Source: Gammaproteobacteria bacterium
Lineage (GTDB): Bacteria; Pseudomonadota; Gammaproteobacteria; Pseudomonadales; Azotimanducaceae
Direction of reading: 5' to 3'
Length of the DNA: 55,190 nt
Assembly (NCBI GenBank): GCA_012269545.1
Contig: JAAXKB010000008.1
Location: forward strand, 112,667-167,856
Shown here piece after piece: positions 6,549 through 11,907 of the stretch (within the stretch, counting starts at the first letter, position 1; the number at the start of each line of letters is the position of its first letter). The notes under the pieces are model-generated. The model was not told the origin of the DNA. It did no database searches and saw only the letters and a program-made list of their open reading frames with translations. The translations under genes were made by a program, and so were the position numbers.

Positions 6549-7334
6549 CTAACCGCCGCTTTGGTCTCGGCCCCGATCTTGAATTTGCTGTCGGCGCGAG
6601 GCGACTTGTTCAGATGGTCTTTGGTTTTTCGCGTGGGCGCGGTTCGCCGTGTTTTCGATGGCAAGACCTTCACTGAGTGTCGCCGCCCAGCCCTCATCCA
6701 TGATGCGTCGTATTTCGGCGCGTGTAACCGGCTCGGTGGACACGATGTCTCGGGCCAGCTGCTCGCAGGTTTGCAGCAGTTCGTCTGCGCTAACGACCTT
6801 GTTGACCAAGCCCCAGGCGCAGGCTGTTTCGGCATCCAGATAGTTACCGGTCAGGCTCAGTTCCTTGGCTCGATTGATACCGATTAGCCTAGGCAGTCGC
6901 TGCGAAAGCCCCCAGCCGGGTACAACGCCAACTCGCGCATGGGTGTCTGCAAAGCGGGCGTCGGGGCTTGCGATCAAAAAGTCGCACATCAGGGCGATCT
7001 CAAAGCCACCGGTGATCGCGAAACCATTGATCGCACCGATAACAGGTTTGCCCACGTTGGCGACGGCCTCGCCTAAATCGCGATCGGTGATCGCGTCGCT
7101 TTTGCTGGACTGCGTCTCGCCACCCAACTCTTTGAGGTCCAGACCGACGGTGAACGCACGTCCGGCACCGGTCAGAATGATGACTTGGGTGTCTGCGTCA
7201 TCGCGCAGTTGGTAAAAGGTTTCGGCCAACGTTTGTCGCAGTGCGCCGGAAAGTGCATTGAGTGCCTCTGGACGATTCAGGGTTACGGTGGTAACGCCCT
7301 GATTTCTTGCCACCAGTACCAAATTAGTCGTCAT
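6549..7334 (-). CDS. Enoyl-CoA hydratase/isomerase (crotonase family)
   Basis: A 261-aa protein with the crotonase order: TVTLNRPEALNALSG, the oxyanion-hole strand RAFTVGLDLKEL (~65), and the second half VIGAINGFAITGGFEIALMCD (~100-120), followed by FADTHARVGVVPGWGLSQRLPR. The position of the first catalytic Glu of true hydratases falls in ITGGFEIALMCD, and the second falls in ARVGVVPGWG, where Glu is replaced. The reaction may thus be isomerisation or hydrolysis rather than standard hydration. It is monocistronic and convergent with glk. Its role in acyl-CoA degradation is inferred from the many related genes nearby. Confidence 0.9.
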   Translation of the reverse strand: MTTNLVLVARNQGVTTVTLNRPEALNALSGALRQTLAETFYQLRDDADTQVIILTGAGRAFTVGLDLKELGGETQSSKSDAITDRDLGEAVANVGKPVIGAINGFAITGGFEIALMCDFLIASPDARFADTHARVGVVPGWGLSQRLPRLIGINRAKELSLTGNYLDAETACAWGLVNKVVSADELLQTCEQLARDIVSTEPVTRAEIRRIMDEGWAATLSEGLAIENTANRAHAKNQRPSEQVASRRQQIQDRGRDQSGG

Positions 7335-7504
7335 TCTTGTGCTCCTGCCGAGTAGGTTAAAAGCTTATCGGATGCAAGGGCGTGGGCACACCTTGACTAT
7401 CACGCAAATTGAGTGATTCGAGCTTGACCGAGCTGGTTCTGTTGGTCGGATAGGCGCAACTTGGCTGCACCGCCCAGATGCAAAAAGGCGCTTTGAGGAA
7501 AGTC

Positions 7505-8119
7505 ATGAACTGGATTCCACAGAGTAAACATGGGTTACTGCGGGCCTCTGGCGCAGCGACCCTTTTGGTGACCGTGCTGTCGACCGCTGCGCCCTTTGCG
7601 CAGGCGGACCAAGGGGACTATGCGGATGCTTGGGGCCCCAGTCTTAATGCTCCCATACCCTTGCTGGCAGCCTCTGATCAGAATGGTGAGCTGCAGGATA
7701 TAGCGAGTCTGACTGGCGAGAACGGCTTGCTGGTGCTGTTTAACCGCTCGGCGGTTTGGTGACCCTACTGCAAGCGCCAGTTCGTGGAACTGGCTTCGTG
7801 GCAAGAGCAATTCGACGGTCTGGGCATCAACGTGGCTGGCATGACCTATGATTCGGTCTTGGATTTGAAGACCTTTCACGACAAAGTGTCACTGGGTTAT
7901 CCACTACTGCACGACGAAGCGGCTACCCATGTGACCGTCTTAGGTATTCTCAATGAGGAATATCCGGAAGGGCACCGCGCCTATGGAATACCGCATCCGG
8001 GTGCCTTGCTGCTGGATGCAGATGGCGTAGTGCGCGGCAAGTTCGCCATTGCAGGGTACAAGGAGCGACCCGCTTTTGAGGTGATGCTGCAGGCGGCATC
8101 AAAACTGGTTCAGAAATAG
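7505..8119 (+). CDS. Exported redoxin (AhpC/TSA-like) with in-frame UGA; candidate selenoprotein, UxxC motif
   Basis: Reading through the TGA at 7760-7762 gives one 204-residue protein (start ATG 7505 behind GAGGAAA). The UGA falls at residue 86 in RSAVW-U-PYCKRQF, exactly where family members have Cys in RSADWCPYCK. A UxxC redox pair would replace CxxC. Residues 1-38 form a signal peptide (hydrophobic ATLLVTVLS, then AQA-D), so it acts in the periplasm. The thioredoxin fold continues past the UGA without a break: ELASWQEQF, VAGMTYDS, PLLHDEAATH, YGIPHPGALLLDADGVV, GYKERPAFEVML. The downstream part begins mid-fold with no start or ribosome site of its own. A perfect hairpin sits 21 nt after the UGA. 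A sequencing error (TGY read as TGA) is the main alternative. Confidence 0.85.
7776..7794 (+). promoter_or_regulatory. SECIS-like hairpin downstream of in-frame UGA
   Basis: GCCAGTTC (7776-7783) and GAACTGGC (7787-7794) form a perfect 8-bp stem closed by the 3-nt loop GTG. The loop begins 21 nt after the UGA (7760-7762) and starts with G. Bacterial SECIS elements are known to lie in the coding region just after the UGA, with the apical loop roughly 16-37 nt away and a G among the first two loop bases, where SelB binds. The element meets all three criteria while still coding for RQFVELA. Function in Sec insertion is inferred. Confidence 0.75.
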
Positions 8120-8251
8120 TGGAATCGTCTTGTTTGCCGTTGCTGTTGTTTTAGGGCGTTCATTGGGGTGCTGTCGACGTTTCAAGGTTGATTTACACCA
8201 GCGGCATTGTTTTCATTGCGACAGAAGCACGTCTACAAGGATCCAAAACCG

Positions 8252-9130
8252 ATGAACACGCTCCTTCGCCTTTACCAAGTCAAGGTAAGGGACTGTCTGC
8301 TGCTTGCCAGTGTTGTGCTGCTTAGCGGGTGCGCCAGTATCGTCGGTTCGTTAACCGGTGGATTGGCGGCCAACCTGTCAACGGCCATTTTGGAAAGCGA
8401 CGACCCGGCGATGATCCGTGATGGCGCGCCGTCCTTCCTCATATTGATCGACTCCTTGTTGGCTGGCTCGCCTGATAACGCAGCCTTGCTGGCGCAGTCG
8501 GCGGAATTGCATTCGGCCTACGCCGGAGCCTTCGTGGCGGAACCCCAGCGAGCAGCGCAACTGCACAGCAAGGCGAAGAGTCAAATACTGCGTTCAACTT
8601 GCCTGTCACTGAAAGATGCCTGTGATTTAGAGAACCGCGACTTCGACGAGTTCTCTGCGTGGGTGCAGGCGCAGGACGAAAAAAGCGTGGCGGCACTGTA
8701 TAACTTAGGCAGCATTTGGGCTGGATGGATACAGGCAAATAGCGCGGACTTTACCGCCATAGCCCAGCTGGCCAGAGTCAAAGCCTTGATACAGCGCGTT
8801 GCTGAATTGGAACCGGAACACGCCAATGGCGGCGCCTTCCTCTATTTGGGCGTATTTGAAACCTTGCTGCCGCCAGCCATGGGCGGTCGCCCAGAGTTGG
8901 GGCGACAGCACTTTGAGCGGGCTCTGGCCATTTCCAACGAACGGAACCTAATTGTGAAGGTTATGCTGGCAGACCAATACGGACGGCTCATGTTCGACCG
9001 AGACCTGCACGACCGCCTTTTGAACGAGGTGATGGCGGCTCCGGCAACAGCGCCGGGGCTCACGCTGATGAATACCGTGGCGAAGGAACGCGCCCAACAA
9101 TTGCTGGACAGTGCCGATGATTACTTCTAG
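8252..9130 (+). CDS. TatT-like lipoprotein, TRAP transporter-associated component
   Basis: A 292-aa protein. The N-terminal signal ends in the lipobox LLSG-C with Cys27 as lipidation site, so it is a lipoprotein. The rest is helical with TPR-like repeats: FLILIDSLLAGSPDNAALLAQSAELHSAYAGAF, EKSVAALYNLGSIWAGWIQ, VAELEPEHANGGAFLYLGVFETLLPPAMGGRPE and HFERALAISN. PPAMGGRPE...FERA is characteristic of the TatT family, first described in Treponema as the periplasmic T component of a TRAP system. The start ATG 8252 follows AAGGA. It lies 10 bp before the DctP-type gene, which supports the assignment. In Treponema TatT trimers bind the P subunit; the ligand here is unknown. Confidence 0.87.
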   Translation: MNTLLRLYQVKVRDCLLLASVVLLSGCASIVGSLTGGLAANLSTAILESDDPAMIRDGAPSFLILIDSLLAGSPDNAALLAQSAELHSAYAGAFVAEPQRAAQLHSKAKSQILRSTCLSLKDACDLENRDFDEFSAWVQAQDEKSVAALYNLGSIWAGWIQANSADFTAIAQLARVKALIQRVAELEPEHANGGAFLYLGVFETLLPPAMGGRPELGRQHFERALAISNERNLIVKVMLADQYGRLMFDRDLHDRLLNEVMAAPATAPGLTLMNTVAKERAQQLLDSADDYF

Positions 9131-9140
9131 GAGACAAGGA

Positions 9141-10166
9141 ATGCATGTGTTGAACCGAGGGATCGCTGGATTGGTCGTTGTTACAACGGCGTTGCTATTG
9201 AGTGTGGGAGCTCAGGCGGCCACCACATTGAAAATCGCCACCCTCTCCCCAGAAGGCACAGGCTGGATGATCGAGCTGCGCAAAGCGGCCAAGAATATCC
9301 GCGAGCGCACCAATGACGAAGTCAAACTCAAAATCTACCCCGGCGGCGTCATGGGCGATGACAAGGCCGTGCTGCGAAAGCTCCGTGTCGGCCAACTGCA
9401 CGGTGCGGCCATGACCTCAGGCGGAGTACTACAGCCCTATCCGGATATCGCCCTCTACAATCTGCCGCTGGTCTTTCGCAATGCCGAAGAAGTGGACTAT
9501 GTGCGGGCGCGGCTGGATGAAAAGCTGATGGCCGGTCTGCGGGAAAATAAGTTTGTGGGTTTTGGTCTGGCGGAAGTGGGCTTCGCCTATCCCATGATGA
9601 AAGACCCCATCACCGCAGTGGATCAGTTTCAAAACCGCCGGGTTTGGGCGCCGGACAATGATCCGGGCGCGTTGAAGGCCTACGCGTCATTCAATATTTC
9701 GCCAGTCCCGCTGCCAATAGCCGACGTGCTCACCGGGTTGCAAACCGGCTTGATTGATACCATCGGTTCGCCGTCCATTGGCGCCATTGCCCTGCAGTGG
9801 CATACCCAAGTGGACTACGCCTTGGAGTTGCCGCTGATGTACGTCTACGGTTTGTTCGCGCTAACCGAGCGAGCCTTTAATCGTATGGATGAAGCAGAGC
9901 AGGCTATCGTCACGGAAGAACTGGAAGCCGCGGTCGCCCGCGTCGATGCCATGTCGCGAAAGGACAACGTTGCTGCTGACAAGGCTCTGCAAAGTACGGG
10001 CTTGCAGTGGCTTCAGCCGTCGGATGAAGAACGTCGCCAGTGGTACGCCATGGCGGATGAAGCCAATTTGAAACTCAAAGCAAATGCCTACGTTTCCGCA
10101 GAAATGTTTGATGAGCTGATGACGTTGTTGGGAGAGTATCGCAGCGGCGCTGTAACCGAGCCGTGA
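9141..10166 (+). CDS. TRAP transporter solute-binding protein (DctP/TatP family)
   Basis: The product is 341 aa. The start ATG 9141 has AGGAG 7 nt upstream. A Sec signal peptide ends near VGAQA-A (~residue 27). The mature part begins TTLKIATLSPEGTGWMIELR and contains EVKLKIYPGGVMGDDKAVLRKLRVGQ and the conserved ligand-binding arginine region FQNRRVWAP. IADVLTGLQTGLIDTIGSP is the standard DctP.LQTG.ID motif. It captures the substrate in the periplasm and delivers it to the membrane subunits. Pairing with TatT suggests a hydrophobic or aromatic ligand rather than a C4-dicarboxylate, but that is inference. Confidence 0.93.
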   Translation: MHVLNRGIAGLVVVTTALLLSVGAQAATTLKIATLSPEGTGWMIELRKAAKNIRERTNDEVKLKIYPGGVMGDDKAVLRKLRVGQLHGAAMTSGGVLQPYPDIALYNLPLVFRNAEEVDYVRARLDEKLMAGLRENKFVGFGLAEVGFAYPMMKDPITAVDQFQNRRVWAPDNDPGALKAYASFNISPVPLPIADVLTGLQTGLIDTIGSPSIGAIALQWHTQVDYALELPLMYVYGLFALTERAFNRMDEAEQAIVTEELEAAVARVDAMSRKDNVAADKALQSTGLQWLQPSDEERRQWYAMADEANLKLKANAYVSAEMFDELMTLLGEYRSGAVTEP

Positions 10167-10630
10167 CCGGCGGAATCGACAAAGCACTGGGGCTTTTGCG
10201 CCGGTTTGAAGATGGGATATTGGTGGCGTTGTTGATCACCATGGTCGGTATGGCGGCCAGTCAGGTGGTGCTGCGTAATTTCTTCGACTCCGGTCTGTAT
10301 TGGAGCGACAGTCTCGTCAGGGTGGCGGTACTTTGGGTTGCCTTAGTGGGCGCCATGGTGGCCTCCCGGGATGACAGCCACATCCGCATCGATTTGGTGA
10401 GCCGGCTGGTGCCTTCTCAATATCGGCAGTGGATTGAACGAGTTACGCGTTTGTTTACTTTCGCGGTGCTGTGTTTGTTTACGTGGGGAAGCGGCAGCTT
10501 CGTCTATTACGAGTATGTGGATCAGGCCATCGCCTTCGGTGATGTGCCGGCATGGGCGCTTGAAATTATCATGCCCATTGGCGGCGCCGTGATGGCGATT
10601 CGATACCTGTTGCTGACGGTGAAGCCATGA
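10163..10630 (+). CDS. TRAP transporter small permease subunit (DctQ family)
   Basis: A 155-aa membrane protein starting with GTG inside the stop of the P-subunit gene (GTGA overlap). Four hydrophobic segments are visible: GILVALLITMVGMAASQVVL, LVRVAVLWVALVGAMVAS, VTRLFTFAVLCLFTWGSGSF, and the C-terminal LEIIMPIGGAVMAIRYLLL. The DctQ hallmarks R.FF..G..W.....R (LRNFFDSGLYWSDSLVRVAV) and the charged HIRIDLVSRL loop are present. It forms the TRAP membrane complex with the M subunit encoded immediately downstream. Confidence 0.92.
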   Translation: MTGGIDKALGLLRRFEDGILVALLITMVGMAASQVVLRNFFDSGLYWSDSLVRVAVLWVALVGAMVASRDDSHIRIDLVSRLVPSQYRQWIERVTRLFTFAVLCLFTWGSGSFVYYEYVDQAIAFGDVPAWALEIIMPIGGAVMAIRYLLLTVKP

Positions 10631-11907
10631 TTTGGCTGGGCGTGATCGTCATTCTTGCGATGGCGGCGTTGGGAGCGCCATTGTTTGCGGTGCTGATGGG
10701 CGCCGCGATGTTGGGCTTCTACAGCGCCGATATCGACCTCGCCATCATTGCCATCGAGCTGTACCGCATCGTCGACACGCCATTGTTGGTGGCACTGCCG
10801 CTGTTTACCTTCAGCGGCTATTTGCTCAGCGAATCCAACACTTCCACACGACTGGTAAATTTAATGCAAAGTCTGTTTGGTTGGTTGCCCAGCGGATTGG
10901 CCATCGTCGCGTTCATTGCGTGCTCAATTTTTACCGCTCTCACCGGCGCTTCCGGGGTCACCATCGTCGCCTTGGGCGCTCTGTTACTGCCGGCTCTCAA
11001 ACAAGCGGGTTTCGCGGATAAATACAGCTTGGGTTTGGTCACCACTTCCGGCAGCTTGGGCTTGCTGCTGGTCCCTTCTGTGCCCCTGATTCTGTACGGC
11101 GTGATAGCCCAGCAGCTGGACGTCGGGGAATCTTTCACCATTGTCGAGCTGTTCATTGCGGGTGTCGTCCCACTGTGTCTGATGCTGTCGCTGCTCATCC
11201 TATGGACGCTTTGGCATCATCGTGGCGGCGTGATTCCCAAGGTTCCCTTCACCACGGGCAACTTGCGCGCCGCGCTGTGGGATGCCCGTTGGGAGTTGCC
11301 CTTACCCTTTGTGGTTCTTGGCGGGGTGTTTGGCGGCGTTTTTGCGATTTCAGAAGCCGCGGCGGTGACTGCTGCCTACGTGATCTTGGCGGAAGTACTG
11401 CTATACAAAGAAGTGGCTTGGCGTCAGCTGTCCAAGGTGGCCGTTGAATCCATGGTCATGGTGGGTGGCATCCTGCTGATCTTGGGTATTGCTTTGGCGT
11501 TTACGAATTTTCTGGTGGATGCCGAGGTACCGCAACAACTGTTGGTCTTTATCAACCAGTACATTGAGGACCCTCTCAGCTTTTTGATCTTGCTCAATAT
11601 TCTGCTGCTGGCGCTGGGCGCCATGCTGGATATCTTCTCTGCGCTGGTGATCATGGTGCCACTGCTGCTGCCGGTGGCGGTGGGGTATGGGATTCATCCG
11701 GTGCATCTGGGCATTATCTTTTTGGCCAACATGCAAATCGGATATTTCACACCTCCCGTGGGCATGAATCTGTTTATTGCCAGCTATCGGTTCAAAAAGC
11801 CCTTAACCGAGCTGTATACCGCAACGCTGCCGTTTTTCATGGTGCTGCTGTTTGCGCTGATGTTGATCACTTACTTTCCCTACCTCAGCCTATGGCATAT
11901 GGAATGA
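10627..11907 (+). CDS. TRAP transporter large permease subunit (DctM family)
   Basis: A 426-aa polytopic protein (about 11-13 helices), starting at the ATG that overlaps the Q-subunit stop (ATGA). Features include GAPLFAVLMGAAMLGFYS, PLFTFSGYLLSES, the conserved GASGVTIVALGALLLPALKQAGF and SGSLGLLLVPSVPLILYG stretches, and the second-repeat signature HPVHLGIIFLANMQIGYFTPPVGMN. These match the ion-transporter-superfamily fold of DctM, which drives Na+-coupled uptake. It is 3 bp from yjbQ, so one transcript from 8252 to 12321 is likely. Confidence 0.94.
   Translation: MIWLGVIVILAMAALGAPLFAVLMGAAMLGFYSADIDLAIIAIELYRIVDTPLLVALPLFTFSGYLLSESNTSTRLVNLMQSLFGWLPSGLAIVAFIACSIFTALTGASGVTIVALGALLLPALKQAGFADKYSLGLVTTSGSLGLLLVPSVPLILYGVIAQQLDVGESFTIVELFIAGVVPLCLMLSLLILWTLWHHRGGVIPKVPFTTGNLRAALWDARWELPLPFVVLGGVFGGVFAISEAAAVTAAYVILAEVLLYKEVAWRQLSKVAVESMVMVGGILLILGIALAFTNFLVDAEVPQQLLVFINQYIEDPLSFLILLNILLLALGAMLDIFSALVIMVPLLLPVAVGYGIHPVHLGIIFLANMQIGYFTPPVGMNLFIASYRFKKPLTELYTATLPFFMVLLFALMLITYFPYLSLWHME

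Follow-up and report, generated by a model that had tools for sequence, protein, structure and literature searches.

A redoxin gene with a single in-frame TGA

The 55,190-nucleotide stretch of DNA analysed here (the window) contains a redoxin-like gene whose reading frame is interrupted once, and the question this locus raises is whether the interrupting TGA ends the protein, reflects an error or a broken gene, or is read as selenocysteine (Sec). The gene (7505–8119, + strand) runs from ATG 7505 through 204 codons to a TAG at 8117–8119, and its sole internal stop is the TGA at 7760–7762 (+ strand; codon 86), which lies in the context FNRSAVW-U-PYCKRQF and would make Sec the first residue of a UxxC motif (U86-P-Y-C89). 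The initial annotation had reported a frame of 204 codons open apart from this TGA, and both the frame and the UxxC context were reproduced from our translation. We note that there is an alternative in-frame ATG at 7478, and that a GAGGA sequence at 7495–7499 sits directly 5' of ATG 7505. The part downstream of the TGA had also been described as having no start signal, which is nearly right: GTG 7784 does begin a 111-amino acid frame, but this is the Val94 codon inside the loop of the hairpin described below, and no ribosome-binding sequence is visible upstream of it. Conventional gene prediction would probably break the gene in two, giving an exported stub and a separate downstream piece.

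The product is probably exported, with a probable signal at 7505–7606 (+ strand) recognised by eye and cleavage guessed to follow AQA at residue 34, and the N-termini of relatives, also judged by eye, likewise look hydrophobic. A Pfam search placed the redoxin in AhpC-TSA (PF00578, 67.6 bits compared to a cut-off of 26) and Redoxin (PF08534, 34.6 bits compared to a cut-off of 26.6), while an NCBIfam search of the protein returned no family above cut-off and PADLOC detected none. An AlphaFold2 model built from 18 sequences has the thioredoxin/peroxiredoxin fold (mean pLDDT 87.5) with residue 86 immediately preceding a helix formed by residues 87–105, and the solved folds ranked best by Foldseek were PrxQ/Bcp/AhpE and other peroxiredoxins, with ResA placed lower. 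On the evidence of the frame, the conservation of the codon 86 column, hairpin covariation, the Sec machinery, purifying selection and the predicted fold, we consider it highly probable that the gene encodes an exported AhpC/TSA thioredoxin-fold protein in which UGA 7760–7762 is read as Sec by means of SelB and tRNA-Sec and under the direction of the hairpin; Sec insertion, export, redox chemistry and the reducing partner are the parts of this explanation that we infer.

Conservation of the TGA among homologues

Codon 86 was TGA in 47, TGC in 22 and TGT in 11 of 80 relatives found by scanning contigs with two search patterns (the 80 loci being the best 80 of 244). It should be noted that the share of Cys in this set does not represent a natural frequency because one of the two patterns requires Cys at codon 86, and 28 of the 33 loci with Cys matched no other. 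The 52 loci matching the pattern which makes no requirement at codon 86 comprised 47 with TGA and five with Cys; only in this subset could another residue have come to light, and none was seen. The homologue column is therefore Sec or Cys in 80/80 loci, or in 52/52 when only those free of search bias are considered, with one decayed copy carrying TGG besides.

Matches to the redoxin were found in 123 of 150 genomes from the same family, and codon 86 was TGA in all 30 of the same-family loci that were fetched (the window's own gene included). Among the matches listed, nearly all same-family rows spanning residue 86 report one TGA; one (in G004) reports one TGA plus one TAG, another (G052:C11:1200695) is a stop-free match beginning at residue 86 itself, and four other stop-free rows cover only the portion past residue 102. 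An identical TGA is present in two close relatives from separate assemblies (L052 and L053, 79 and 82% identical to the window's redoxin), and comparison with these gave dN/dS values of 0.055 and 0.070 for the part after the TGA and of 0.23 and 0.29 for the part before it, which includes the signal region. Codons 91–98 are wholly unchanged. The frame past the TGA is, on these sequence comparisons, under purifying selection.

A sequencing error at the TGA is very unlikely given the same codon in close relatives, the low dN/dS values and the 30/30 family loci. More generally, the view that translation truly ends at the TGA, or that the codon is an error, and that the gene is a broken Cys-redoxin has in its favour that decay does happen in this family, as the G016 counterpart has TGG at codon 86 and further in-frame TAA and TAG codons. 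We nevertheless consider this very improbable for the window's gene, since an identical TGA recurs in 47/80 homologues and in every fetched family locus, selection persists past it, the frame has no other stop, and the hairpin that follows covaries; the conserved TGA, purifying selection and covariation led us to reject both the read error and the pseudogene. The decayed G016 gene (L181, G016:C49) is still located upstream of a TAtT gene (see below), and its genome has tRNA-Sec but no selB match at 1e-40.

The open frame past the UGA would also be expected if the codon had been reassigned genome-wide to another amino acid such as Trp. Against this, TGA terminates 15/30 of the same-family copies of the redoxin gene and 13/39 of the long frames in a mechanical listing for the window, indicating that UGA has not been reassigned wholesale; the other 33 of the 80 homologues have Cys in the column, the single Trp codon there belongs to the decayed G016 copy, and both tRNA-Sec and SelB are present. 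We regard the probability of reassignment as very low.

A phylogenetic tree of 90 distinct sequences (57 Sec and 33 Cys forms remaining from 110 loci after the removal of duplicates) needs only three changes between Sec and Cys. One supported branch holds 31 of the 33 Cys forms together with two Sec forms (L092 and L101), and many of the rows in it are titled Pseudohongiella. These two Sec forms are nested among Cys forms and have a six-pair hairpin with a GU loop, so that the Sec codon was either regained or retained. The redoxin of a record titled Klebsiella pneumoniae (L111, CAMCRC010000007.1) sits deep among the Pseudohongiella-like sequences, and this record is probably a mislabelled bin.

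Selenocysteine machinery

The search for selA, selB, selD and tRNA-Sec proposed in the initial annotation found all four in the source genome (2.85 Mb, 99% complete), each above its curated cut-off: tRNA-Sec at 72.4 bits (also called tRNA-SeC with anticodon tca by ARAGORN), selB at 406.5 bits (C50 42051–43877), selA at 518.1 bits (C50 40697–42022) and selD at 260.1 bits, with selA and selB adjoining each other on the shared contig. The selD gene (L049, G000:C34:734–1639) lies within a 742-amino acid open frame which may be an Ndh–SelD fusion like those described in the GOS survey (PMC2398784).

Across the homologues, selB scored above cut-off in 16/17 genomes with Sec forms, hand-picked out of the 47 Sec loci, compared to 9/32 genomes with Cys forms. 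In the same family it was above cut-off in 120/150 genomes, and 14 of the 30 without it still show a UGA-containing match, although these matches include distant paralogues and the genomes are drafts. Six selB-less genomes were checked for tRNA-Sec by scoring the top 150 candidates per genome, and it was found in one; no selB was found in G182, the assembly from which the near relative L052 comes. As the selB-less family genomes are drafts, missing contigs are a likely explanation.

A SECIS-like hairpin follows the UGA

A SECIS-like hairpin of eight pairs with a GUG loop (7784–7786) is located at 7776–7794 (+ strand), with the stem starting 13–14 nt and the GU(N) loop 21 nt after the TGA. Among 30 aligned sequences (28 distinct), 96.4% of the hairpin cells are paired and both partners have changed in four of seven pairs, with synonymous Leu and Gln codons varying jointly across the stem. 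None of 500 shuffles reached the observed number of paired cells, number of both-sided cells or covariation score, and structures slid along the alignment were 4.6–43.9% paired. The other two measures were less striking: the number of pairs changed on both sides was attained in 24/500 shuffles, and that of further pair types in 162/500.

The hairpin fits the bacterial SECIS model summarised in the Fig. 2 legend of a review (PMC13188914), which gives a loop of 3–9 nt, a stem of 4–16 bp, G in loop positions 1–2, a spacing from the UGA of 16–37 nt and a minimum free energy of -7.5 kcal/mol or lower; the corresponding values in the window are a loop of 3 nt (GUG), a stem of 8 bp, a spacing of 21 nt and -11.0 kcal/mol. 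When the stem is taken as uninterrupted, 23 of the 57 Sec hairpins reach -7.5 kcal/mol and 52 reach -5 kcal/mol. The folding energy of the window sequence alone is not unusual (z 0.09), and mean z values relative to synonymous shuffles were only mildly low (-0.76 for Sec forms, -0.42 for Cys forms and -0.8 for the window). An Rfam search at the hairpin gave nothing above threshold, with one chance snoRNA match far under the gathering score.

The six core pairs are retained by 57/57 distinct Sec forms (13.6 expected from synonymous codon shuffling) and by 3/33 Cys forms (3.6 expected), and Val94, whose GTN codon makes the loop, is found in 57/57 Sec forms compared to 2/33 Cys forms; pairs and GU loop together occur in 57/57 and 0/33, respectively, a contrast which cannot reach significance because the three changes in the tree amount to two or three independent pairs. 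This clean split suggests that an RNA signal is fixing a protein residue. Together, the Sec machinery, the TGA/Cys column and the covarying SECIS-like hairpin support the candidate selenoprotein proposed in the initial annotation. Two of the outcomes named there as refuting it, a genome lacking SelB and tRNA-Sec and homologues with neither Cys nor Sec in this column, were looked for and the results favoured the proposal. A marine lineage that has been little studied thereby gains a well-supported selenoprotein.

Oxidoreductase or peroxidase

In thioredoxin-fold proteins with a UxxC motif the first residue attacks and the Cys resolves, while the peroxiredoxin motif is PxxxT/SxxC. By analogy, Sec86 would be the likely attacking residue on a disulfide or peroxide, with the U-x-x-C pair beginning the first active-site helix; Cys89 would then resolve the intermediate to give a selenenylsulfide with Sec86, which might be reduced by a putative periplasmic thiol donor resembling DsbD. 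The predicted fold also permits a different function, in which the selenoprotein is a peroxidase with Cys89 at the peroxidatic place: phmmer puts Cys89 opposite the Cys of an Aeropyrum peroxiredoxin, and the top structural matches are mostly PrxQ/Bcp/AhpE and other peroxiredoxins. The peroxiredoxin motif itself is absent, however, with Ser82 and Sec86 in the places of the Pro and Thr, and UxxC resembles the thioredoxin motif, a point made in the Sargasso Sea paper (PMC1088965) for its Prx-like family. Peroxidase action therefore seems rather unlikely and, as the Pro and Thr are not kept, we favour thiol-disulfide exchange as the probable chemistry.

Association with a TPAT transporter cluster

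The redoxin gene is followed on the + strand by genes for a TRAP transporter T-component (TAtT) lipoprotein (8252–9130; PF16811, 217.9 bits; LSGC lipobox identified by eye), the substrate-binding protein DctP (9141–10166; PF03480, 103.6 bits; NF037995, 269.8 bits and above cut-off), the small permease DctQ (10163–10630; PF04290, 90.4 bits) and the large permease DctM (10627–11907; PF06808, 245.5 bits; TIGR00786, 331.5 bits and above cut-off). An in-frame GTG at 9111 belongs to the DctP frame. The initial annotation had placed the redoxin next to a TRAP operon, and this neighbour is borne out by our analysis, with the position recurring in relatives, but the type needs correcting as the single cluster of TAtT with DctP, DctQ and DctM identifies a TPR-protein-associated TRAP transporter (TPAT). 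No promoter-like site was found in 7330–9200 and two terminator-like sites at 9174–9191 are at chance level only, and for these reasons we refer to the transcription unit as putative.

We determined how often this arrangement recurs by examining the 41 of 47 Sec loci and 27 of 33 Cys loci whose sequence extends 2.5 kb or more past the redoxin, and found TAtT and DctP downstream in the same orientation in 33/41 Sec loci compared to 0/27 Cys loci. With TAtT as the starting point, 30 family loci were fetched, the best-scoring of 51 listed, and 18 of them have the redoxin upstream in the same orientation; 16 of these 18 have W-U-P-F/Y-C, one is cut by a contig end and one is decayed. By position, the redoxin is upstream in about 21 of the 51 TAtT rows among the matches listed, so the fetched subset flatters the association, and this slightly lowers the probability we would assign to a dedicated partnership. 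In the wider class, 30 fetched loci (from 64 TAtT-bearing genomes among 274, examined with 1.5 kb flanks and the redoxin-family profile only) contained no redoxin upstream of TAtT on the same strand, and the one WCPPC protein found near TAtT was unrelated and on the opposite strand. The association is then common in the family but neither obligate nor general, and the general link between TPATs and redoxins which we had expected found no support in the class-wide set (0/30 fetched loci).

As to function, we lean slightly towards gene order inherited without any shared role, as the redoxin is missing upstream of TAtT in 12/30 fetched family loci (about 30/51 of those listed) and, in the wider class, in all 30, the crotonase gene flanking the redoxin opposite the cluster is likewise often retained, and paralogous and Cys copies are located elsewhere. 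What counts against inherited order is the retention of redoxin–TAtT–DctP in 33/41 Sec loci, including relatives down to about 46% identity. In PMC5812351 and PMC10942540, TPATs are presumed to move hydrophobic molecules, and no cargo had been determined for the transporter studied. A task shared by redoxin and TPAT, for example keeping the thiols of the transporter's periplasmic parts or an oxidised hydrophobic substrate reduced, is a hypothesis. A stronger proposal, which we regard as unlikely, is that in this family the TPAT has the Sec redoxin as its own dedicated partner in the periplasm, and that Sec is kept because the redoxin repairs or activates transporter parts or oxidised (e.g. peroxidised) cargo; if true, it would amount to a selenium-dependent transport system. 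Any functional tie would link selenium to the uptake of hydrophobic compounds, an idea open to testing in a class of transporters with unsettled cargo.

Relationship to known selenoproteins

The initial annotation had suggested that this class of protein may be undescribed, which does not hold, as Prx-like UxxC selenoproteins (PF00578) have been listed since 2005–2008. Of the 22 Prx-like selenoprotein sequences in the Sargasso Sea set (PMC1088965), 21 have UXXC; the GOS survey (PMC2398784) reports 225 'Prx-like 1' sequences with UxxC, and two reviews (PMC9312934, PMC13188914) list a Prx-like (thiol:disulfide oxidoreductase) family. The redoxin appears to be a further member of this class, known since 2005, which it resembles in scoring above the PF00578 cut-off, in having UxxC in place of TxxC/TxxU, in having a stem-loop right after the UGA and Cys homologues, and in its occurrence in marine bacteria; this likeness is judged from the published descriptions. 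Those descriptions make no mention of an export signal, of Sec as the usual form in a family, or of a TPAT neighbourhood.

Other known proteins are less similar. The motif of SelL is UxxU, and although the SelL-related family NF040769 has a Prx-like thioredoxin fold in common with the redoxin, residues 52–142 of which align to it, the score falls below the cut-off (32.2 compared to 120 bits). PrxQ/Bcp/AhpE peroxiredoxins share the fold and have their peroxidatic Cys at the place of Cys89, but the Pro and Thr of their PxxxTxxC motif are replaced in the redoxin, which has the thioredoxin-like UxxC instead. The transporter genes are clustered as in TPATs of the TatT/Tp0956 type, with the difference that here a selenoprotein redoxin precedes them, and no redoxin is named in the accounts of these clusters in PMC5812351 and PMC10942540.

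A passage from the section of PMC13188914 on selenoprotein operons names none with a TRAP transporter, and the deep-Sep paper (PMC12013277) uses none of the words Prx-like, redoxin and AhpC in its main text. In the open-licence literature we found nothing linking selenoproteins or Sec to HTCC2089, Pseudohongiella or Azotimanduca, and, among the papers listed, no redoxin or selenoprotein tied to a TAtT-type TRAP cluster, in a search made mostly by title and the opening of abstracts. The Sec form as the usual one in the family and its frequent position before a TPAT cluster may be new.

Further TGA-bearing redoxins

Four more AhpC/TSA-domain genes in the source genome (G000) have one in-frame TGA each, in a W-U-P-x-C context (C55:4103–4492, C71:6008–6388, C48:102257–102619 and C66:4943–5161), such that five of the 11 PF00578 matches in this genome have an in-frame TGA when the window's redoxin is counted. 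The C55 gene (NRSVDW-U-PFC) is related to the window's redoxin gene, and inverted repeats could be seen by eye past the TGA in the C66 and C48 genes. The family also has a second, longer redoxin-like group with frames of about 390–590 amino acids (e.g. G031:C174 and G082:C124), which is distant from the first (about 31–36% identical) and whose members, among the matches listed, have one in-frame TGA each.
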